The position numbers were made by a program, and so were the translations under genes. From the NCBI RefSeq assembly GCF_003207825.1, contig NZ_NKTY01000018.1:1-59511 (forward strand): a stretch of 59,511 nt of DNA, read 5' to 3'. Source of the stretch: Komagataeibacter saccharivorans. Lineage in GTDB: Bacteria; Pseudomonadota; Alphaproteobacteria; Acetobacterales; Acetobacteraceae. The notes under the pieces were generated by a model that had not been told where the DNA came from, ran no database searches, and was given only the letters and a program-made list of their open reading frames with translations. Shown one piece after another: positions 7,218 to 59,511 of this stretch (positions are counted from its first letter, which is position 1; the number at the start of each line of letters is the position of its first letter).

Positions 7218-7631
7218 ATGTTCATGGATTTCGATAGATTGTCCGCAACCTTGTGGATCGCGGCGGGCGGTGCGCTGGGCACGGTCGGGCGCTACTGGGT
7301 CGGTATCTGGATGGCGCGATGGAGCCAGAGCCTGCCATGGGGCACAATCGCAATCAATGTGACCGGGTCTTTCGCCATCGCGTTTTTCGCCACGCTGACA
7401 ACAGCGGCGGGGCGCTACCCGGTATCGGATGTGGGACGCCTGTTTTTCATGGTTGGCATCTGTGGCGGGTATACTACGTTTTCATCATTCACGTTACAGA
7501 CGCTTGACCTGCTGCGTGGTGGTGCGCCGGGTCGTGCCCTGCTGAATATCGGCATTTCCGTCGTTTTGGGCATGCTTGCGGTATCAGCGGGTTATCTGGT
7601 CGCCGAACGCCTTAACCAGACAACCGTATAG
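7218..7631 (+). CDS. crcB: Fluoride exporter CrcB/Fluc
   Basis: A 137-residue inner-membrane protein with four predicted helices. Family motifs are [13 protein letters not shown] at the start, [12 protein letters not shown] in helix 2 (the Asn lining the pore) and [15 protein letters not shown] in helix 3 (the Phe-box and the TTFSSF break). Fluc proteins work as antiparallel dimers that let toxic fluoride leave the cell. ATG 7218 and ATG 7224 are both possible starts. No fluoride riboswitch fits in the 32 bases before it, so expression is probably driven from the stress-protein gene upstream. Confidence 0.93.
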
Positions 7632-31342: not shown

Positions 31343-32206
31343 GTGACGGCCCCTGTCGACCCGCCACTGCGCATCCTTGCGCCGCAGGGCAGGGCAGCCC
31401 CCGTCATCGTCGCGTCCCCACATTCGGGGCGTGATTACACGGCTGAATTCCTGCGCATGTCACGGCTGGATGCACATGCGCTGCGGCGCAGCGAGGACTG
31501 TTACGTGGAACGGTTGTGCGAAGGGTCGATGGGGCAGGGGGCGACCATGCTGCACGCCACGTTTCCGCGTGCCTATTGCGACGTCAACCGCGAAGCGTGG
31601 GAACTGGACCCCACCATGTTCCGCGATCCGCTGCCCCACTGGTGCAATACGACCAGCAGCAAGGTGCGCGCCGGATTTGGTACGATTGCCCGCATCGTCT
31701 CCCGCGACGGGCCGATCTATCCCCGTCCGTTACCGTTCAGCGAGGCTGAAACGCGCATCCGTACCTGCTGGCAGCCCTATCACGATACGCTGTCGCGTCT
31801 GGTGCAGGCATGCCGGGACCAGCATGGCTGCTGCATCCTGCTTGATGCCCATTCCATGCCGACGCCGCAGGGGCGGGGCGAGATGCCTGATTTCGTGCTG
31901 GGCAATGCCTGGGGCACGTCCTGCACGGCGGAACTGACGACGCTGGTGGAAGATGTGCTGAGCGGGCATGGTTACACGGTAGCCCGCAACGTGCCGTTTG
32001 CCGGTGGCTATGTGACCCGTCATTACGGTCGGCCACGTCGGGGCGTGCAGGCCCTGCAGCTTGAAATCAGCCGTGGCCTGTACATGGATCAGGATTCGCT
32101 GGAACCCCATGCGGGCTTCGTATCGCTACAGGCCGTGCTGACCGACCTGTTCGCCGCCATCGCGCAATACGGCGACCTGCTGGCCCGGCAGGTGGCGGCG
32201 GAATAG
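31343..32206 (+). CDS. N-formylglutamate amidohydrolase-like protein
   Basis: The product of 287 residues carries the N-formylglutamate amidohydrolase signature segments: IVASPHSGRDY, YCDVNREAWELDPTMF, LDAHSMPTP and ALQLEISRGLYMD. The enzyme hydrolyses N-formyl-L-glutamate, the last step in one histidine degradation route. No other hut genes are present here, so the role may be different. GTG 31343 follows AGGA; GTG 31274 would add 23 residues of poor character. It ends near a GC-rich hairpin and is convergent with yidB. Confidence 0.85.
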   Translation: MTAPVDPPLRILAPQGRAAPVIVASPHSGRDYTAEFLRMSRLDAHALRRSEDCYVERLCEGSMGQGATMLHATFPRAYCDVNREAWELDPTMFRDPLPHWCNTTSSKVRAGFGTIARIVSRDGPIYPRPLPFSEAETRIRTCWQPYHDTLSRLVQACRDQHGCCILLDAHSMPTPQGRGEMPDFVLGNAWGTSCTAELTTLVEDVLSGHGYTVARNVPFAGGYVTRHYGRPRRGVQALQLEISRGLYMDQDSLEPHAGFVSLQAVLTDLFAAIAQYGDLLARQVAAE

Positions 32207-39353: not shown

Positions 39354-40070
39354 TCAGCCCCGCCGCAGCGTGCGCACAACCCCGGGCAGCGCCAGCGCAA
39401 TCAGCACCACCCCCATAAGCGGCAGTACCATCACCCCGCACCAGCGGTAAGACAGCGCGCCCGCAATACCCCCCAGTGCGAAGGACAGCACGATTGCCCC
39501 ATGCAGCCGCAGCCGTTCGCGCACCCGCATGGCCGTTGCATCCGCCCATGGGGTGCGGCGGTGTTCAAGCCACTGGGCCAGTTCTATGCCCAGATCGGTC
39601 AGCATGCCGGTCATATGCGTGGTGCGGACCCGCGCGCCGGAAATATGGGTAACGGTGGCGTTCTGCAGGCCCATCAGAAAACTCAGCCCATAGGCCAGCA
39701 TCCGTGTGGCCTGCCGCGCGGGCAGAAAATCGGCGGTCGCCCCCAGCGCCACCAGCATCATGCCCTCCAGCACGATGCCGCAGGCATAGACCGCATGCAG
39801 GTGATGCCTGCGTCCCGCATTGACCAGCAGCGTGGCTGAAATCCCACCCACGACGAATGCGGCGATCAGACCAAGGCAGGACAGGACGGACACCGCCCCG
39901 CCACCCAGAATATCAGCAGCCAGCGCCGACAGGTTGCCGGTCATGTTGGCGGAATAGTACCCCACCACAAGAAAGCCGGTCACGTTGATCGCCCCCGCCA
40001 TCGCCGCCAGTGTGCAGCCCAGCCGCAGGTCGGTACTGATACTGCGTGATGCCCCTTCGTGAACCAGCAT
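39354..40070 (-). CDS. DUF1275 membrane protein (YoaK-like)
   Basis: A 238-residue protein with six hydrophobic helices. The pattern GAINVTGFLVVGYYSANMTGN and LMGLQNATVTHISGARVRTTHMTG is diagnostic of DUF1275/YoaK. No function is established for the family; a transport role is assumed. ATG 40070 is the start, with AAGGGGC just upstream. It may be co-transcribed with ybaK. Confidence 0.9.
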   Translation of the reverse strand: MLVHEGASRSISTDLRLGCTLAAMAGAINVTGFLVVGYYSANMTGNLSALAADILGGGAVSVLSCLGLIAAFVVGGISATLLVNAGRRHHLHAVYACGIVLEGMMLVALGATADFLPARQATRMLAYGLSFLMGLQNATVTHISGARVRTTHMTGMLTDLGIELAQWLEHRRTPWADATAMRVRERLRLHGAIVLSFALGGIAGALSYRWCGVMVLPLMGVVLIALALPGVVRTLRRG

Positions 40071-40523
40071 TGTTCCTGTCCGCCCGTGCGGGGTGTCGGC
40101 ATCCGGCCCGCATGGCCATGCCCTCCCGCCGCCGGTTGCGACGTGGCGGCCCCGATACGGATTGTTATCACATCATGCCACGCGCCCGACCCGCGCACAA
40201 CCGGGGCAGGGCGCGGGTATGGCAGTATAACGGATGTGAAATGCCCCGTATCCCGAATGCCCACACGCCATGTTACCGTCGGGCGGCATGGTGCGGGGCA
40301 ATAATATCGGAATGGACGGAAGGCTGGATTTCCGGCGTTCCAGTCCTGCAACGACCCGGCCTTACCCCACAATGGCGCATGCCACTATTGTCAAAACCGG
40401 CAGGCTGGTGGAAAACTGATGATGACCAGCAGGCGGATATGGCCGCTGGACTGTTGACCTGGGGTGCGCGGTCTGTCTGGGGGGCGGATCGTGCGGCCTG
40501 CATATCAAACCGGGGGAATAACA
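40071..40523. other. Intergenic control region, no gene seen
   Basis: A 453-base divergent region between DUF1275 and the oxygenase operon. No gene-like frame was accepted. A GC-rich inverted repeat (CCCGCGC / GCGCGGG, about 40191-40217) is present. TTGACC at about 40454 could be a -35 hexamer for the operon, but no matching -10 is clear. Confidence 0.35.
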
Positions 40524-41498: not shown

Positions 41499-42262
41499 AG
41501 GACATATCCGGCCCGTCCGCCGTTATCCTGATCCATGGCGCATGGCAGGGAAGCTGGGCCTGGCAGCGCTTCATGGATGTATGGGCGACGCGCACCGCCA
41601 TTCCCACCCATGCCGTCGATCTGCCCGGTAATGGTGTGGATGGCACGCCCGCGCGGGATGCCACGCTGGCGCGTTACGTGGCGCATGTGGCGGAACTGAT
41701 GGACACGATCGGCACGCCCGTCCACCTTGTCGCCCATTCGGGGGGCGGGGTTGTCGCCTCCGCCGTGGCGGAACGCTTTCCCGCGCGCGTGCGCTCCATC
41801 GCCTATCTTGCGGGCATGATGCTGCCCGATGGCATGGGCTTCGGGCAGGTGGTGGAACAGATGGTGCCGCAATACCCGGCGGCGACCGGCATCAACCCCT
41901 ACCTGCGCTGGCCCGAACCCGGCATGGTGTCCGTTGTCCCGCCTGAGGCGGCCGTGGCCATCTTTCTGCAGGACTGTCCGCCCGATGTCGCCATCGCCGC
42001 GTCACGCAGGCTGACACCGCAGGGGCTGGGCGGGCTGGACCTGCGCGCATCCCTTACGGCAGCGCGTTTTGGTACGGTTCCCCGCCTGTATGTCGAGGCA
42101 ACTGGCGACCGTTCGGTCATCCTGCCCGTGCAGCGCCGGATGCAGGCCCTTGTGCCCGGCGCGCAGGTCATTACCATGGATACGGGACACGCCCCGCAGG
42201 TTGCGGACCCTGTGGGCACGGTAGACCATCTCCTTCCTTTTATTGAAAGACACGGCGCATGA
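41495..42262 (+). CDS. Alpha/beta hydrolase
   Basis: The 255-residue product has the alpha/beta hydrolase N-terminus ILIHGAWQGSWAW, the nucleophile elbow AHSGGG (serine) and a C-terminal histidine in MDTGHAPQ. A cap region lies between residues about 120 and 190. The sequence style is close to EstC/hydroxynitrile-lyase-like esterases. It lies between the oxygenase and a BMP-family binding protein, overlapping both by four bases. It probably hydrolyses an ester or amide in the pathway served by that operon. Confidence 0.85.
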   Translation: MKDISGPSAVILIHGAWQGSWAWQRFMDVWATRTAIPTHAVDLPGNGVDGTPARDATLARYVAHVAELMDTIGTPVHLVAHSGGGVVASAVAERFPARVRSIAYLAGMMLPDGMGFGQVVEQMVPQYPAATGINPYLRWPEPGMVSVVPPEAAVAIFLQDCPPDVAIAASRRLTPQGLGGLDLRASLTAARFGTVPRLYVEATGDRSVILPVQRRMQALVPGAQVITMDTGHAPQVADPVGTVDHLLPFIERHGA

Positions 42263-43413
42263 TCCTGCCGCGCAGGCACCTGCTGGCCACGGCCGGGGCT
42301 GCCCTTTCCACCGGCCTTGCGCCACGACGGGGCCTTGCCGCCCCATCCGGCCCACAGTCAACGGCGCAGATACTGGCCGATCTTGCCGCCCCCTATGCCA
42401 GTATGCCGCCCCTGCCGCCGGTAGCGGAGGAGGACGCCCTGCTGGCCATGGGCTATGTCGGACCGACCAGTGATGGCGGCTGGACCGAAATGCACCATGT
42501 CGCCCTGCAGGCGGTGCGCAGGGAATTCCCGCGCCTGCGCACGGTCTATGTGGAAAGCGTGCCCTATTCCGCCGACGCTACCCGCCTTTTACGTGAATTC
42601 GTGGCCGAAGGCGCGCAGATGGTCATGACCGGCGCGGATTATGGCGACTTCCTGACCGATGTTGCCGCCCGCGCGCCCGATACCGCCTTCGTGCAGTGCG
42701 ACGGGCGGGCCGTGAAACGCAACGTATCATGGTATTATATCGCGCACTGGTATGTCAGCTACGTGATCGGGGTTGCGGCGGGGCTGCTCAGCAAGACGGG
42801 CAAGCTGGGCTTTATCGGCGCGTTCCCGCTGCCTTCGGCCTATGCCGGGGCCAATGCGGCGCTGATGGGCGCGCGCACGGTCAACCCGGACGCCACGATG
42901 CAGGTCATCACCATCAACGCATGGTTCGATCCGCAGGCCGCCATTCAGGCCGCCAACGCACTGGCGGACAAGGGATGCGACTTCCTGTTCGGCATCATGG
43001 ATGAGGCAGGCTACCTGCATGTGGCGCAGGAACGGGGCCTGTGGGCCGCGATGTGGAACAAGGACATCCGCCAGTTCGGGCCGGACGCGTATGTGGCCTC
43101 CGTCGTGCTGGACTTCGCGCAGTTCTACATAGCGCAGGTCCGTGCGCGCCTTGCGGGCACATGGCGGCCCGTGCCGCAACTGCTGATGATGGGTCAGGGC
43201 GTTGACCGCGACCCGTGGGGCAGGCGCGTGCCACAGGATGTGCGTGATAAGGCCGATGCGGTGCGCAGCCGTATCATGAACGGCTGGTCCCCCTTCGTTG
43301 GTCCCCTGCGTGACCAGCACGGCACGCTACGCCTTGCGCAAGGGGAGGTCATGAACGACCTCGAACTCTATCACTGGAACTGGGCGGTGGACGGCGTAAG
43401 CGGTCTGCCATAG
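42259..43413 (+). CDS. BMP-family (PnrA-like) substrate-binding protein
   Basis: The 384-residue protein has a twin-arginine-like signal (LPRRHLLATAGAALSTGLA) and the BMP/PnrA fold: MGYVGPTSDGGWTEMHHVALQ at the start of the domain, GADYGDF, and KTGKLGFIGAFPLPSAYAGANA. BMP proteins bind purine nucleosides or nucleobases for an ABC importer. No permease or ATPase genes are adjacent, so it might serve a transporter encoded elsewhere or work as a sensor. It overlaps the hydrolase stop by ATGA. A guanine deaminase gene lies close by on the other strand. Confidence 0.85.
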   Translation: MILPRRHLLATAGAALSTGLAPRRGLAAPSGPQSTAQILADLAAPYASMPPLPPVAEEDALLAMGYVGPTSDGGWTEMHHVALQAVRREFPRLRTVYVESVPYSADATRLLREFVAEGAQMVMTGADYGDFLTDVAARAPDTAFVQCDGRAVKRNVSWYYIAHWYVSYVIGVAAGLLSKTGKLGFIGAFPLPSAYAGANAALMGARTVNPDATMQVITINAWFDPQAAIQAANALADKGCDFLFGIMDEAGYLHVAQERGLWAAMWNKDIRQFGPDAYVASVVLDFAQFYIAQVRARLAGTWRPVPQLLMMGQGVDRDPWGRRVPQDVRDKADAVRSRIMNGWSPFVGPLRDQHGTLRLAQGEVMNDLELYHWNWAVDGVSGLP

Positions 43414-47695: not shown

Positions 47696-50236
47696 TCAGG
47701 ATATGATCTGGCGGATTTTTTCAGCCAGCGCCGTGGCGGAATAGGGTTTGCGCTCCACCGGCACATCATGCAGTTCGCTGGGGATGAGGGTGCCGTCGGC
47801 ATAGCCGGTGGCGAAAATGAACGGCACGCCGCGTTCACGCAGGGCACGCGCCACCGCGATCGAACTTTCACCACCCAGATTGACATCCAGTATCGCCACA
47901 TCGGGCACGCGCTCGCTTATCGCGTTCAGCGCCTCGTAAACCGAGGCCACGGTCCGCACCTGCCCGATCCGGGTGTCCTCGATCGCCTGTTCCGCCTCCA
48001 TCGCGATCAGGAACTGATCCTCGACCAGCAGAATATCCGCATCCAGCACTTTCTTCTCCTTTCCGGTGGCGGGGGATTGGGGTGGGGGCGACGGGTCCGC
48101 GTCATCGGCGGCGTCCGGGGCAGGATTGACGTGGCGGGCAGGCAGGTTGAGCGTTACCCGCAACCCGTCGGGCCTGCAGTCGGCATGGGCGCTGCCGCCC
48201 AGTTCATGCGGGAACCCGCGTTCGATCAGCACGGAGCCAAAACCCCGCCGCGTGGGGGGCAGGACCGCATTGCCTACGGTCTCGCGCCATGTGATACGCC
48301 ATTCATCCACCTTCGCATCATATGTCCAGCTTATGTCCAGCCGCCCGCAGGCCTGCCCCAGCGCGCCATATTTGACCGCGTTGGTGGCCAGTTCATGGAT
48401 CACCAGCGCCAGCACCGAAAGCGCCTGACCCGTCAGCCATATGCGCGGGCCGGAGCATGTAATGAACGAACGTTCCCGGTACGGTGCAAGTTCCGCGTCC
48501 AGCAACGCGTAAAGCAGGCCGCCGCCTTCGCTGCGCACCGCCTGATCGTGCGCCAGCGCCAGTGCGCGGATGCGCCCGCGCAGGCGCTGGACATGTTCGG
48601 GGGCCGTATCTTCGGGTGCGACGGGCTGGCTGACCAGTGACTGCACGACGGACAGGATGTTCTTGACCCGGTGGTTCAGTTCCTCGTTCAGCATGCGCTG
48701 CCGCTGGTCCGCCGCCGCGCGTTCACGCAACTGCAACTGGTGGTATGCGCCCATCACTTCGATCAGGGCGGAGCGCACCAGTGTCGCGGCTTCCACCTCA
48801 TCCGCCGTCCATGGCAGGCATTCCTGCGTGACCTGCTGGGTCCATATCTCGAAACTGTTGCGCGGGCCGAAATAGCCGTCCTGCACGTCAACGGGATCGT
48901 GCGGGTCCGGTGGCGTATCGGGGGAGGCGCCCCATTTCAGAGTCCGCACCACCTCGCGGCGGAAAACCAGCAGGTAGTCCCCGACGCGCGAAGAAATCGG
49001 GACGATCATCACCCCCGCCGCATCGGCTACATAATGCACCGCGTCCGGTATGAAGGTGCTCAGGCGGTTCGTGTGCCATATCTGCGTCCCCGCCTGTTCG
49101 CGCGCCAGTTCCAGCAGGGCGTCCATGGCATCCGGCGGGGGATGCGCGCCGTTATAGGTCCACCGTCCGCCCACCCACAGCGCCGCGCCATCGCACTGCA
49201 CGAAGGTCAGCATCTCCTTCAGGTGGGCCATGAGATAGGCCGGCATGTCAGAGACCGGGGCCGCCCCCTTGAGGAAGGTTTCGATCAGCGCATGGGTCTG
49301 GTGCGTCATGACCAGCCGCTTGGTGCGCAGCAGGTTGGTGATCTGTAGCGACAGGAATTCCCCGAACATGCGGGCCACGACGCGCTCGCTCATGTTCAGC
49401 GTGCGCGCGCTGTAATGGTGGCACACGATCATGCCCCACAGCCGCCCGTCCACCATCAGCGATACCGACAGTGATGCGACGACCCCCAGCCCGCGCAGGT
49501 AGTCGCGGTGGGTTGGCACCGCCGCGCGCAGGTGGGTATGCAGCAGGTCCGCCGGCGGCAGGCGGGCAGGCGAGATGACAGGCACCGGTTTGGCCGCAAG
49601 ATCACTGATCGCGCGGATCAGGTTGGTGCTGTACAGCCTGCGGGCCGGGGCAGGGATGTCGCTGGCGGGAAAATGCTGGCCGAGGAAGCTTTCAAGGTCG
49701 GGACCGTGATGTTCGGCCTCCACCTTGCCTGACCCGTCCTCGGCGAAGTGGTAGAGCATGACCCGGTCGAAGCGCAGCACCCCGGCCATCAGGCGGACAA
49801 CAGTGCGGTAAAGACGCTCGAATTCCGTAATCTCGCGGATGCGGTCGATCATGGTGCGCAGCAGCGACAGATAGGCCCCGTCCAGCCCCATACGGGCGGG
49901 CGGTTCCCATTCCAGCATGATTTCGTCGCCTGCCGTATGGATCGCGACATCATAAAGACCGCCAGATGGCAGCTCCTGACCGAATACAAGGGCAGGGCGG
50001 CGATGGGCTTCGCCATGGGTGGCCAGCGCGTTGCGGATGCTATGGGTTGCCTCGCGCCCGATCACGTCGCGCAGGCCCATTCCGTAAGCCAGTTTCACGT
50101 TACCCAGATGTTCCGGCGCGTTGGCCGACCACCGCGTGATGCGCTCCAGCCGCGCATCGCATACCAGCAGCCATCCATGGGGCTGGATGCATTCCGCCCC
50201 GACGGACAGGCTGCATGTCCCGTCATGTCCCGCCAT
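47696..50236 (-). CDS. Bacteriophytochrome HWE-type histidine kinase with C-terminal receiver
   Basis: The 846-residue protein has PAS, GAF and PHY domains (residues about 10-500), an HWE-family kinase (His about 522 in NEELNHRVKN, then VIHELATNAVKYGALG) and a receiver domain (phospho-acceptor Asp about 784 in AILDVNLGG). The chromophore pocket is intact: IQPHG, PASDIP, PTHRDYL and CHH. A biliverdin-attaching Cys could be Cys8 or Cys16. Such proteins sense red/far-red light. No haem oxygenase gene for biliverdin is in the window. ATG 50236 was chosen; ATG 50245 and GTG 50257 are also open. It is divergent from a DosP-like c-di-GMP gene. Confidence 0.92.
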   Translation of the reverse strand: MAGHDGTCSLSVGAECIQPHGWLLVCDARLERITRWSANAPEHLGNVKLAYGMGLRDVIGREATHSIRNALATHGEAHRRPALVFGQELPSGGLYDVAIHTAGDEIMLEWEPPARMGLDGAYLSLLRTMIDRIREITEFERLYRTVVRLMAGVLRFDRVMLYHFAEDGSGKVEAEHHGPDLESFLGQHFPASDIPAPARRLYSTNLIRAISDLAAKPVPVISPARLPPADLLHTHLRAAVPTHRDYLRGLGVVASLSVSLMVDGRLWGMIVCHHYSARTLNMSERVVARMFGEFLSLQITNLLRTKRLVMTHQTHALIETFLKGAAPVSDMPAYLMAHLKEMLTFVQCDGAALWVGGRWTYNGAHPPPDAMDALLELAREQAGTQIWHTNRLSTFIPDAVHYVADAAGVMIVPISSRVGDYLLVFRREVVRTLKWGASPDTPPDPHDPVDVQDGYFGPRNSFEIWTQQVTQECLPWTADEVEAATLVRSALIEVMGAYHQLQLRERAAADQRQRMLNEELNHRVKNILSVVQSLVSQPVAPEDTAPEHVQRLRGRIRALALAHDQAVRSEGGGLLYALLDAELAPYRERSFITCSGPRIWLTGQALSVLALVIHELATNAVKYGALGQACGRLDISWTYDAKVDEWRITWRETVGNAVLPPTRRGFGSVLIERGFPHELGGSAHADCRPDGLRVTLNLPARHVNPAPDAADDADPSPPPQSPATGKEKKVLDADILLVEDQFLIAMEAEQAIEDTRIGQVRTVASVYEALNAISERVPDVAILDVNLGGESSIAVARALRERGVPFIFATGYADGTLIPSELHDVPVERKPYSATALAEKIRQIIS

Positions 50237-50919
50237 TATGCGCCCCATCCACCCCACCGGAAACCGATCCGCGCCACGGTATGCCCGTATGGGACGTGTC
50301 CGTGCAATATGCCCCCGCCTGTGCCATTGCGGCTCCTGCCTGTGGGATGATCGTACGCGGCGATCCGGGCTGTCCCGCCCCGCCGCTGGCGCCCGCCCCG
50401 ATTGCGCCCCTGCGGTCCGTACGCCATGTCGCGCCCGCTACCATACAGTCATCGTGACGGCTGCGCCCGATCACATTTGTGTGGTGGTAAAGACATGGTG
50501 CAACCCTTCCTCATAACCATGCAGATGATGCGTCATGACCACCCTTATCCATACATTTCCGGTATAGATAAAGTCATCCGTGGCACTGGCATGCCGTGCC
50601 CGCGCATCCTGCCCGGCAATGCGGCGGGGCGTGCGGGTATTGCCAGCGGGGGAGTGGTATCGGGGCGCATATCCTTCCATAGCGCGTGTCAATGCCCGGT
50701 AAACGGGGCCATAAGGCATGGCCCGCCTGCAGGAGACAGGTATTACCCGGGCGGTAATTTTGGCCATATACTTTCGATATATGCTTTGTTAATACGACCA
50801 TGCGCATTAAGGCGCGTACTGGCTGGTCACGCGATATGGTTATCGAAATATTTCAGTATATGTCACATTTCCGTCTCCTCATCCCGCGCGTTGCCGATTA
50901 GCAGGAGCCCAGCAGCAAG
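50237..50919. other. Divergent control region with long imperfect inverted repeat
   Basis: A 683-base region between the phytochrome and the DosP-like gene. No gene was accepted. Near the right end CATATACTTTCGATA (50765-50779) pairs with TATCGAA and AGTATATG at 50841-50862, with a 7-base bulge, and an A/T-rich loop of 61 bases. The coding start at 50920 has AGGAG upstream. A role in regulation is plausible but untested. Confidence 0.4.
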
Positions 50920-53475
50920 ATGCCCCGAGACGTGATAGACAACACGCCGATTACTGTCCTGCCCGCGCTGGAACAGAGCATTCTCGCCGTCGTGCTGATT
51001 GATGAGAAAAACGACATCACCTTCTTCAACAGCGCCGCGGAAAAACTGTGGCGCTGCGCGCGTGAAGACGTGATGGGGCGTAATGTGAGTGTCCTCGTGC
51101 CCCGCGCGCTGCGCAGCACGCATGATGACCTGATCCGCCAGAACCGCGATGGCGGGGTCAACCGCATCGTCGGCACCAGCCGCGATGTGGAAGTCGAACG
51201 TTTTGACGGCACCACCTTCTGGGCCAACCTGTCGCTGTCGCGCATCGCGGTGGGGGGCAAGGTCGGGTACATGGCGCTGATCCGCGACATATCGCGTGAA
51301 GTCGCCGACCGCGAAAAAATCCGCATGCTGTCGCTGGTGGTGCGCGAGACCGACCGTGGCGTCGCCATCCTCGATCCTTCCTTCCGCATCATCTACGTCA
51401 ACCGCGCCTTCAGCGACCTGTTCGGTTTCACCTTTGAGCAGGTGGTGGGGCAGGGACTGTCCGCCCTGCTGACGGGCGACGCGGCCGATATCGGCATCCT
51501 GAACGCCCTGCATGAAAGTGCCCGCAACGCCCGGGGCTTCACGGTTGAAATCCGCGCCCGCCACGCCAGCGGGCGCGATATCTGGGTATCCGCCACCATG
51601 AATCCCGTATTCGATGCCGATGGCGGGATCGAGAACATCGTGGTGGTGCTGACCGATATTACCGAACAGTATTTCCTCGACAGCCTTCAGCGCGACACGC
51701 TGGAAGCGATTTCAAGCGACCTTGGCCTCAACGAGGTCATGGATTTCATCTGCCGCCGTATCGAACAGCATATCCCCGACGTGATGGTGGCCATCTACCT
51801 GATCGGTTCGGATGACCGGCTGAAATGCGTGGGCCGCGCCAGCCTGCCGTCCGAACTGGTCGAACTGTATGACGCGCAGCCCATCGGGCCGGACGCCCCG
51901 TGTTCCGGCGTGGCCGCCATTACCGGCACGGTGGCGCAGTCCCCCGCCATCGCAACCGACCCGCGCTGGCGGAACATGCGCGATGCGACGCTGCGCCACG
52001 GCATCCATACCGCCGTCGCCACCCCCATCATCCTGCGCAACAGCCGCGTGGCCGGGGTCTTCACCTGCTATTCCCGCACCGCCAGCCTGCCCGGTCCCGC
52101 CTGCCAGAAGGCGGTGAACGCCAGCCTGCACCTGTGCACCGTGGCCATAGAACGGCACGAGGCGAAGGAACATATCAGCCGCCTGTCGGATTTCGACATG
52201 CTGACCGGCCTGCCCAACAGCCGCTGGCTGCGGCAGAACATGGCCCGCCTGCTGCGCCGCCCCGGCCGCGGCAACCTGATGCTGGTTACGGTGGGCATGG
52301 ACAATTTCAAGCACATCAACGACCTGTTCGGCCATACGGCGGGTGACGAACTGATCGCGCGGGTCAGCAACCAGTTGCGGGAGATCATAAGTCTGGATGA
52401 TACGCTGGTGCGCAGCGGGGGCGACCAGTTTACCATCGTGACGGCGGGGGAGCAGCAGCATGCCTCCACCCTGAGCGCCACGATCCTGCATCAGCTTGAA
52501 GCCCCGGCGCAGATTGGCGATGTCCGCATCGGCCTGTCCGCCAGCCTTGGCGTGGCCGTTTACCCCGAAAACGGGGAAGATGGCGGCACGCTGCTCAAGA
52601 ATGCCGAAAGCGCCATGTTCCAGGCCAAGGCCAGCGGGGGCGGGCGGTGCTGTTTCTTCAGCCAGAGCATGAACCAGCAGGCCAGCGACCGGCTGATCCT
52701 TGCCGCCGCCCTGCGTGACGCCATCGCCAATAACGACCTGCGCCTGTTCTATCAGCCGCAGGTCCATGCCCGCAGCGGCAGGCTGTACGGGGTGGAGGCG
52801 CTGTCGCGCTGGACCGATCCGAAACTTGGCTTTGTCTCGCCTGAACGGTTCATTACCGTGGCGGAGGAAACCGGCCAGATCTAGGCCATCGGCAAATGGT
52901 CGCTGCGTGTGGCGTGCGAGCAGATGGCCGAGTGGATACGCGATGGCGTGGATGTGCCGATTGTATCGGTCAACCTGTCGGCGCTGCATTTCCGTGATGA
53001 AACGCTGCCTGATTTCGTGCGTGACCTGCTGCGCGAGACCGGGATTCCGCCCAACCGGCTGACAATCGAAATTACCGAAACCACCATGATCGACAGCTAC
53101 GAGCGGACCATCCACATGGTTCAGACGCTGCGTGAAATGGGTGTTGGCATGTCGATGGACGATTTCGGCACCGGTTTTTCCAGCCTGTCCAACCTTGCGG
53201 GCCTGCCGGTGAACGAAATGAAGATCGACCGCAGCTTCATGGTGGGTCTGGAAAGCATCGAGAAGGTGCGCGCGGTGGTGATGGCGTCGGTACGCATTGG
53301 CCAGAGCCTTGGCATGACCGTGGTGGCCGAAGGTGTCGAGCATGAGCAGCAGCGTCGCCTGCTGGCGGAAATGGACTGCGACGTGCTTCAGGGATACATG
53401 TTCTCCAAACCGTTGCCGGCGGACCAGTTCAGGGACTGGTTTGCAGCCTACCGGCCGGAAGAACTGGGCCTGTAA
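50920..53475 (+). pseudogene. DosP/PdeA1-type PAS-PAS-GAF-GGDEF-EAL protein interrupted by an in-frame TAG
   Basis: The frame encodes an E. coli DosP-like oxygen sensor: haem-type PAS (His68, distal site Thr86 in place of Met, Arg88), second PAS, GAF, degenerate GGDEF (GGDQF, 500-504), then EAL (E626). A TAG stop at 52882-52884 (codon 655) interrupts ETGQI-stop-AIGKW. After it the same frame continues to 53475 with all the remaining EAL motifs: VSVNLS, IEITET, DDFGTGFSSL, EGVE and QGY. DosP and the sister protein at 57832 carry Glu at this position, so one base change (GAG to TAG) explains it. The truncated 654-residue protein would lack phosphodiesterase activity. Sequencing error or amber readthrough are alternatives. 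Confidence 0.88.
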
Positions 53476-53528: not shown

Positions 53529-54632
53529 GTGAGCATTGACGGCCACATCGTCCTGCCCGACCGGGTCATGCCCGGCCGTATTGCGTTCGACACGGTCATT
53601 ACCGGCATGCAGGACCGCAGCGACGTGCCGGATCGCTATATCCTGCCCGGTTTTATTGACGGGCATGTGCATGGCGGCGGCGGGGCCGATACCATGGATG
53701 GGGTGGATGCGATCCGCCATCTGTCACGTTTTCATATGCGCCACGGGACCACCACGCTCCTGCCCACCACCATAACCGCGCCGTGGGATGATGTGCTGGG
53801 CGCGCTGCGGGCGGTGGCGGATGTCATGCGCGATGGCATGGCGGATGGCCCCGACATTCCCGGCGCACATCTGGAAGGGCCGTTCATCAGCCCCCACCGG
53901 CTTGGCGCGCAGCCACCCTTCGCCCTGCTGCCCACACCCGCGCGGGTTGGCGCGGCACTGGATACCGGGGCGGTGCGGGTGGTGACGCTGGCCCCGGAAA
54001 TCGATCATGCACAGGCCGCAATGCGCCAGTTCGCGCAGGCGGGCGTGCGGGTCAGTATCGGCCATACGATGGCGGATTACGACTGCACGGAACAGGCCAT
54101 CGGCTGCATCTGCGCGGCGGGCGGGGTTGCCGGTGGCACGCACCTGTTCAACGCCATGCCGCCGGTCATGGCGCGTGCGCCCGGTCCCGTTACGGCGCTT
54201 ATGTGTAGCGATGCGGGCTATGGCGAGATGGTGTTCGACACCCATCATGTCCATCCGGCCCTGTTCGGGCTTGCGCATCGTGTGATGGGTGGGCGGCTGG
54301 TATTCGTGACCGACGCCATGCGCGCCACCGGCACGGGCGATGGCCCGAGCGAACTGGGCGGGCAGGGGGTCATGGTGGCCGATGGCGTGGCCCGTCTGGC
54401 CGATGGCACGCTGGCTGGCAGCGTGCTGACGCTGGATGTGGCGCTACGCAACGCCGTGCGGGCCGGGGCGTCACTGCCGCAGGCGGCCGGACTGGTCAGC
54501 ACACATGCGGCGAACTGGCTGGGCCTGCCCGATCGCGGCGTGCTCGCACCGGGGCGCCGTGCCGATTTCGTCGTCATGGACCGGGATCTGAACGTGCAGG
54601 AAGTCTGGGTAGCCGGTCGCCGCTGTATATAA
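53529..54632 (+). CDS. nagA: N-acetylglucosamine-6-phosphate deacetylase
   Basis: The 367-residue amidohydrolase has the NagA motifs HVHGGGG, HLEGPFIS, SIGHTMADYD, GTHLFNAM and FVTDAM. It removes acetate from GlcNAc-6-phosphate, a step in amino-sugar and wall recycling. GTG 53529 starts it, 53 bases after the DosP-like frame. All metal and substrate motifs are in place. No nagB or PTS genes are in view. A DMT transporter follows, on the opposite strand. Confidence 0.93.
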   Translation: MSIDGHIVLPDRVMPGRIAFDTVITGMQDRSDVPDRYILPGFIDGHVHGGGGADTMDGVDAIRHLSRFHMRHGTTTLLPTTITAPWDDVLGALRAVADVMRDGMADGPDIPGAHLEGPFISPHRLGAQPPFALLPTPARVGAALDTGAVRVVTLAPEIDHAQAAMRQFAQAGVRVSIGHTMADYDCTEQAIGCICAAGGVAGGTHLFNAMPPVMARAPGPVTALMCSDAGYGEMVFDTHHVHPALFGLAHRVMGGRLVFVTDAMRATGTGDGPSELGGQGVMVADGVARLADGTLAGSVLTLDVALRNAVRAGASLPQAAGLVSTHAANWLGLPDRGVLAPGRRADFVVMDRDLNVQEVWVAGRRCI

Positions 54633-57831: not shown

Positions 57832-59511
57832 ATGCAGATGCGCGCGCCCCCAGCCCTGACCGCCGACATCCTGCTTCCCGCCCTTCAGCAGGCCATGGAT
57901 GGCATCATAATCTTCGATCACGACGGTCGTGTCGTCTTCTGCAACCACGCTGCCGAGGGGCTGTGGGGCCTGACGCATACTGACATGATGGGCCGTGACG
58001 CCACGCTGCTGATCCCCGCCTGCGCGGGTCAGGCGGCGCGGACGGGCGGACTGGATGCGCTGGTCGGTGCCGCGCGGGAGATGGCCATTACCCGCGCCGA
58101 TGGCGATTATGTCTGCGCGGAACTGTCCATATCGAAAGTGCGGGCCGGGAAGGGGGACGCGGCACAGGTCTTTTACATCGCGACCCTGAAGAACGTGACG
58201 GAGGAAACCCAGCGCCGCAAGATCCTGATCCTGCAGAATGACGTGGTGCAGGCGCTGACGGGCGATATTGGCATGGCCGAAATCGGCGGCCTGATCTGCC
58301 GCAAGGTGGAAGGTTTCGTGCCCGACAGCGTCGGAATCCTGATGGTGCGTGACGATACGCGGCCGGAGTGGCGGGTCATATGCACGTCCGCCCTGCCGCC
58401 CCGTATCCGCACGGCGCTGGAAAGCGGGGGGCCATCCGCTGTCGATCTGGAAAAGCTGGCCGCAATCCCGTCTTATGCCGGGCGGCTGGCATGGGACAGC
58501 TACCAGTCCCTGTGCCGTTCACTGGGGCTTCAGTCGTGCTACGCGGCACCTGTCATGGGCGCGGACGGGCAGGTTGGCGGCATTTTCGCGCTGTACCTGC
58601 GCGGGGCCAACCATCTTGGCGCATGGCCGCAGCGTCTGGTGGGGGCGTGTGCGCCCTTCTGCGCGCTGGCGATGGAACAGCAGGCGGCACGTACGCGCAT
58701 TACGCGGCTGGCGCGCTTCGACATGCTGACCGGGCTGCTCAACCGCAGCGCGCTGCATCAGGCCCTGACGGACGCCATCGCGCGCTCCGGCAACCGCCGC
58801 TTTGCCGTATTCATGCTCGATATCGACCGTTTCCACGATATCAACGACGCGCTGGGCCATATCCATGGCGACGAATTCCTGATGGAAATCGCACGTCGGC
58901 TGCGTTCAGTGGCGCAGGATGACTATATCCTCAGCCGCTCCGGCGGGGATGAGTTCGTTATGGTCGTGCCCGACTGCCACGGCGAACGGATCGCCAATGT
59001 GGCGGGGGACCTGATCGCGGCCATCAGCCGTCCGTTCCATATCGCCCGCAATATGATCGGCGTGACGTGCTGCATCGGCGTCAGCACCTTTCCCGCCAAC
59101 GGGCCGGACAGTGAATCCCTGCTCAGCCATGCCGATGCGGCCATGCGGCAGGCGCGGCACGACGGTTGCTGCGGCTTCCATGTCGCCAGCCCCACCAAAA
59201 GCCATGCCACGCCCGACCGGCTGCTGCTTGGGGCGGCGCTGCGCGACACGGTGGCCCATCATGGACTGGAACTGCACTATCAGCCGCAGGTCCATACCCG
59301 TACGCTGGAACTGACGGGGGTGGAGGCACTGGCGCGGTGGCATCATCCGCGCCTTGGCAACATTTTTCCCTCCCGCTTCATCGCGGTGGCGGAGGAAACC
59401 GGCCAGATCGAAGCCATCGGCCAGTGGGCGCTGCTTGAAGCATGCCGCCAGATCGTGAAATGGGACCGCGACGGCATCCATGTGCCCACGGTGGCCGTGA
59501 ACCTGTCCGCC
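57832..59511 (+). CDS. PAS-GAF-GGDEF-EAL protein (3' truncated by window)
   Basis: The 560 visible residues contain a PAS domain (about 14-125), a GAF-like region (about 130-280), GGDEF (FDMLTGLLN to GGDEF at 371-375, intact) and the start of EAL (E498, VEALARW, TGQIEAIG, VAVNLS). An intact GGDEF predicts diguanylate cyclase activity. The RxxD inhibition site is not visible in its usual position. An EAL domain follows, so it may also degrade c-di-GMP or have one silent half. ATG 57832 and ATG 57838 are both near GAAGGACGG. Its Glu at the position of the DosP-like stop codon helps to interpret that defect. The frame is open to the end of the window. Confidence 0.9.
   Translation, partial: MQMRAPPALTADILLPALQQAMDGIIIFDHDGRVVFCNHAAEGLWGLTHTDMMGRDATLLIPACAGQAARTGGLDALVGAAREMAITRADGDYVCAELSISKVRAGKGDAAQVFYIATLKNVTEETQRRKILILQNDVVQALTGDIGMAEIGGLICRKVEGFVPDSVGILMVRDDTRPEWRVICTSALPPRIRTALESGGPSAVDLEKLAAIPSYAGRLAWDSYQSLCRSLGLQSCYAAPVMGADGQVGGIFALYLRGANHLGAWPQRLVGACAPFCALAMEQQAARTRITRLARFDMLTGLLNRSALHQALTDAIARSGNRRFAVFMLDIDRFHDINDALGHIHGDEFLMEIARRLRSVAQDDYILSRSGGDEFVMVVPDCHGERIANVAGDLIAAISRPFHIARNMIGVTCCIGVSTFPANGPDSESLLSHADAAMRQARHDGCCGFHVASPTKSHATPDRLLLGAALRDTVAHHGLELHYQPQVHTRTLELTGVEALARWHHPRLGNIFPSRFIAVAEETGQIEAIGQWALLEACRQIVKWDRDGIHVPTVAVNLSA

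Follow-up and report, generated by a model that had tools for sequence, protein, structure and literature searches.

Several described systems offer comparisons for the gene reported here. AxPDEA1 and the phosphodiesterases of the cdg1-3 operon of Komagataeibacter xylinus: these come from the same genus and are placed, in the passages cited, in the oxygen-sensing heme-PAS class of c-di-GMP phosphodiesterases (PMC4263535, PMC6528568). Escherichia coli DosP (also EcDOS or PdeO; NF008467): this has the same domain order as our gene and provides the best-matching solved chains (9cdr, 9cmf, 9bgv and 9clo). The nonsense alleles of c-di-GMP turnover genes documented in other bacteria: according to the accounts cited, yciR, dgcE, dgcQ and dgcN of E. 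coli and Shigella are likewise GGDEF or GGDEF-EAL genes with a premature stop (PMC10459773, PMC11327459). In Komagataeibacter the cellulose synthase is activated by c-di-GMP, as stated in the cited part of one of these sources (PMC6528568). The genus has many GGDEF-EAL proteins, whose roles are only partly assigned.

The window, by which we mean the whole stretch of DNA analyzed, is a single contig (C25) of 59,511 bases from a draft genome of Komagataeibacter saccharivorans (3.35 Mb in 107 contigs). It contains a gene with the Pfam domain order PAS-PAS-GAF-GGDEF-EAL, which opens with an MPRD start common to all 18 congener orthologues and is interrupted by an in-frame TAG (Table 1). The original prediction had taken this TAG for an amber codon inside the EAL domain of a gene for a DosP-like c-di-GMP phosphodiesterase, and the description holds in each respect: the match to PF00563 (EAL) runs consecutively over both pieces, through positions 2-60 before the TAG and 63-236 behind it, of 236; the DosP model NF008467 (800 positions) is covered in the same manner across the two pieces; and the frame continues behind the TAG to its final stop. 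The 5' product is 78-80% identical to proteins of twelve named Komagataeibacter records. The gene adjoins the PAS-GAF-PHY HWE kinase with a receiver, a light-sensor type beside an oxygen-sensor type, and the nearest other GGDEF-EAL gene starts 4.4 kb downstream.

Table 1. Features of the window that bear on the interrupted DosP-like gene
Feature	Coordinates	Strand	Remarks
DosP-like frame, whole	50920..53475	+	ATG at 50920; final stop TAA at 53473-53475
5' piece, 654 codons and TAG	50920..52884	+	PAS-PAS-GAF-GGDEF plus roughly the initial quarter of EAL; NF008467 positions 13-605, 535 bits
In-frame TAG, codon 655	52882..52884	+	GAG (Glu) in 18/18 congeners
Same-frame continuation, 196 codons and TAA	52885..53475	+	Other three quarters of EAL; NF008467 positions 607-797, 247 bits
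NagA-like amidohydrolase, downstream neighbor	53529..54632	+	Intact, collinear in congener G013
Bacteriophytochrome-type HWE kinase with receiver, upstream divergent neighbor	47696..50257	-	Intact, collinear in G013
Second DosP-like PAS-GGDEF-EAL gene (paralogue)	57832..59511	+	Cut by contig end, only partly seen; Glu at equivalent codon
TAG-ended conserved gene, match	7311-7628		TAG within three codons of G013 ORF match end
TAG-ended conserved gene, match	31343-32197		TAG within three codons of G013 ORF match end
TAG-ended conserved gene, match	42259-43410		TAG within three codons of G013 ORF match end

All 18 congener genomes searched have an orthologue that is open through the site, with frames of 857-907 aa (851-853 aa when counted from MPRD, in the four measured), and each of them has at the aligned codon GAG, the codon that the original prediction had considered as a possible ancestral state, one base away from TAG. 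Comparison with the congener G013 reveals this one stop and no frame change. The Glu predicted for the paralogue and for E. coli DosP was confirmed by alignment, that of DosP (9cdr) as aligned to the paralogue. As the EAL match is consecutive over both pieces and the 18 orthologues are open with GAG, chance is ruled out as the source of this arrangement. A pattern search recovered 25 distinct EAL contexts, 12 of which have Glu at the site and the rest V, R, I, H, K, T, Y, C and the TAG itself. With ten letters occupying the position (TAG counted), Glu by this comparison is not essential there, and a product of readthrough could work. No stop common to other species or paralogues was seen: among the best-scoring matches listed from the 281 EAL matches in 19 genomes, only the DosP-like gene has an internal stop, and it is also the only one of the 12 EAL matches in its own genome to have one. 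A paralogue in another congener (G016:C97:668-1243) has, among the matches listed, an in-frame TGA in its matched stretch and none inside its EAL match.

The EAL motif itself (residue 625 on) precedes the TAG, while VNLS, EITET, DDFGTGFSS, a Lys stretch, EGVE and QGY follow it; all of the downstream motifs that had been listed in advance are thus present. As the TAG falls between EAL positions 60 and 63, the domain is incomplete in both pieces. For an active EAL phosphodiesterase, the EAL motif and the later motifs must be joined in a single unbroken polypeptide, and no such polypeptide is encoded here; from the motif positions we infer that neither piece alone could form a complete EAL active site. 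Six potential in-frame starts (ATG or GTG) are found between the TAG and 53100, and by eye none of them is preceded by an evident or strong ribosome-binding sequence. In the region 52966-53085 of the window the DosP-like copy has two peculiarities, VNLSA and EITET, where 18/18 congeners have VNLSP and EITES; VNLSA is also found in E. coli DosP, so the change from VNLSP to VNLSA at least looks tolerable.

The age of the stop was approached through branch omega, obtained from pairwise distances, with the gene's own branch solved against either G001 or G013 together with 16 other species. Behind the stop, omega on the own branch is 0.15 (0.147; bootstrap 0.06-0.27, 60 resamples), as against 0.16 and 0.19, or about 0.17 (0.172), on the intact G001 and G013 branches of like depth. 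Before the stop, it is 0.24 as against 0.27 and 0.21 on the two intact branches. The gene's own pairwise omega in the 5' part, 0.21-0.27, is raised relative to the pairs among the 16 other species (n=120, synonymous distances 0.10-0.67), which have a mean of 0.065 for the 5' part and 0.067 for the 3' part; relaxed selection on the gene as a whole might give such a difference. Compared with the same 16 species, the intact G001 and G013 genes have an equally high omega, 0.24 and 0.18 (32 pairs); since these are as high and the branch estimates agree, the raised omega is not peculiar to the stop-bearing lineage. With the matched control the neutral share of the own branch comes to -0.03 (bootstrap 2.5-97.5% range -0.14 to 0.10, 300 resamples); with a stricter reference, namely the 120 pairwise comparisons within the more constrained group of 16 species, it comes to 0.08 (0.01 to 0.20, 200 resamples), and by this second figure the matched control may make the stop look too young. 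By these estimates the stop would have arisen within about the final tenth to fifth of the own branch, or else translation would pass it. That branch spans a synonymous distance of about 0.3, long enough for a 'recent' event to be as old as a species. Selection behind the stop is not relaxed beyond that on two intact lineages of like depth, in agreement with the fairly recent nonsense mutation originally proposed. An old pseudogene is rejected on account of the single lesion and of an omega behind the stop that resembles the values on intact branches.

The gene has intact orthologues in its relatives and no second lesion, two marks of a recent nonsense pseudogene, and we consider it probable that it is a loss-of-function allele of a DosP-like c-di-GMP phosphodiesterase produced by a fairly recent nonsense mutation. 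Such a mutation, arising in this Komagataeibacter lineage, would have shortened a stand-alone DosP-like phosphodiesterase that had until then been functional, the cut lying behind the GGDEF domain and translation ending at codon 655. The short product would keep the heme-type PAS, the PAS, the GAF, the degenerate GGDEF and only the first conserved EAL motif, and with that motif alone it should not hydrolyze c-di-GMP; any tail produced through re-initiation would be without the EAL motif. As neither product would have a complete EAL domain, the gene would be a young loss-of-function allele. The mutation may also be confined to a sub-strain.

Several other accounts of the TAG have to be weighed against this one. 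A sequencing or assembly error, with the strain really having an intact gene, would need a single base in a draft assembly, and it would fit both the 18 intact orthologues and a selection behind the stop that is unrelaxed relative to the matched control. We regard it as unlikely, given the quality of the assembly (completeness 100, contamination 0.42) and the scarcity of comparable stops elsewhere. For the base rate, mechanical ORFs of at least 80 aa from one relative (G013) were chosen greedily by score, leaving 22 loci (7,374 codons) of the window after overlaps were dropped; about 1-5.4, 10.1-31.3 (except for a weak match near 16.6) and 33.5-38.8 kb have no G013 counterpart. Two of these loci were flagged for an internal stop: the DosP-like gene and 39357-40214. 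The stop in the latter sits in a poorly aligned, gapped stretch before a likely true start, leaving the TAG as the only convincing case. Similarly, in the genome at large no stop is seen inside the matched stretch of any of 51 ABC_tran, 12 GGDEF (one of them in the DosP-like gene) and 39 adh_short matches, a count that covers the matched domain stretches only. Where compared, the assembly is not error-ridden; a single wrong base is possible. Readthrough, whether by near-cognate decoding or by an undetected suppressor, might on the other hand supply enough full-length enzyme for function: if efficient, it would equally be expected to leave selection behind the stop unrelaxed, and the purifying selection on the tail is indeed like that in intact lineages. 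There is also a precedent in the cited portion of a study of Shigella, in which nonsense mutants of dgcQ and dgcN, while still raising c-di-GMP, gave both a short product and one of full-length size (PMC11327459). What renders readthrough improbable here is that none of the 45 tRNA matches has a CTA anticodon (ARAGORN run on all 45 places); that the RNA following the stop shows no unusual degree of folding (z -1.08); that no inverted repeat of at least 12 was found in 52700-53100; and that TAG ends three other conserved genes of the window. With the stop in 0/18 congeners, nothing suggests a conserved programmed event. The tRNA set is incomplete, in that neither tRNA-Ile(GAT) nor tRNA-Ala(TGC) is among the 45 matches and some tRNA genes are unassembled or missed, and a suppressor in the unassembled part of the genome is therefore still conceivable. 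Amber readthrough, which had been named as the alternative from the outset, is in sum disfavored by the anticodon count and by the use of TAG as an ordinary stop, with room left for a weak form of it. Genome-wide reassignment of the amber codon is rejected on these same two grounds and on the 0/102 matches in the three other families with a stop inside the matched domain stretch.

Truncation might also have changed the function, in that the short heme-PAS-GGDEF protein would have become a cyclase, or else a dominant partner for other DosP-like proteins. The 5' piece itself lacks nothing through the end of GGDEF, and a nonsense mutant of E. coli YciR is called an apparent diguanylate cyclase, as a result cited in the relevant passage of its source (PMC10459773). 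However, the GGDEF motif is GGDQF in 19/19 (the DosP-like gene and its 18 congeners), in place of the GG(D/E)EF signature of cyclases; E. coli DosP, which aligns with EGTQF at this point, shows no DGC activity according to the part of a review cited here (PMC4263535); and the branch omega of the 5' part reveals no specific change in selection. Such a change of function is hardly to be expected, and the idea that losing the EAL end conferred cyclase activity was set aside as unlikely because GGDQF is fixed in all 19. We likewise give only a slim chance to the more speculative idea that the short product is kept as an oxygen-responsive non-catalytic partner or competitor, or that low-level readthrough occurs, and that this retunes the oxygen response of cellulose synthesis.

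If the probable reading, loss of the phosphodiesterase, is adopted, its consequence has to be seen against the other EAL proteins of the strain. Of the 12 EAL matches in the genome, eight are full-length (the DosP-like gene included) and four are partial, at contig ends. Seven other full-length EAL domains thus remain, and four of them (on C19, C33, C44 and C48) also have an intact GG(D/E)EF signature. The rise in c-di-GMP put forward in the original prediction, with a possible gain in cellulose, may or may not follow when a single phosphodiesterase out of several is lost: some effect on c-di-GMP would be expected, but its size cannot be told since the other EAL proteins remain. In the parts of the literature cited, one source quotes for K. 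xylinus 2955 a pde knockout with 48% more cellulose (PMC13068021), and in an overproducing evolved strain, of nine DosP proteins, three were more abundant and one less (PMC12412545). This published evidence points both ways. CelA, the model for the catalytic part of cellulose synthase, matches the genome once (C57:44582-46591), in an open frame of 1547 aa. This frame is presumably long enough for a fused BcsA-BcsB. The contig itself ends inside the second DosP-like gene (window 59236-59511), and C31 breaks off in a related gene at the identical point; C44 and C48 begin with the missing EAL end and are 93% identical to each other over 217 bases. Probably a repeat common to several DosP-like genes broke the assembly.

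The stop is a real feature of the sequence, and the apparent gene loss is of an ordinary type whose main use would be as a natural mutant. If borne out, it means that one of the conserved DosP-like phosphodiesterases is inactivated in a natural allele, and this provides a ready comparison strain, no more. Our literature search found no published report of this stop.

When set beside E. coli DosP, the Komagataeibacter saccharivorans copy shares the histidine of the first PAS domain, which is conserved in 19/19 (the gene and its 18 congeners) and aligns with a DosP histidine that we take to be the proximal heme ligand His77. The GGDEF domain is degenerate in both. The Met of the GMSRE stretch of DosP, again on our assumption the heme ligand Met95, aligns with a Thr in the DosP-like gene, and the EAL domain, uninterrupted in DosP, is interrupted here. 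The NF008467 cut-off is 857 bits: both pieces fall below it, and so do all four intact congener proteins scored, out of 18 (822-831 bits); on this scoring the gene is DosP-like, not a DosP equivalog. Its likeness to AxPDEA1 and the cdg1-3 operon proteins lies in the genus and in the class description, and unlike them it sits between a phytochrome kinase and a NagA-like gene. Lastly, in the three Shigella genes the stop comes before the GGDEF domain, so far as the cited account describes them (PMC11327459), whereas in the DosP-like gene it is the EAL end that is cut, and this in an acetic acid bacterium.
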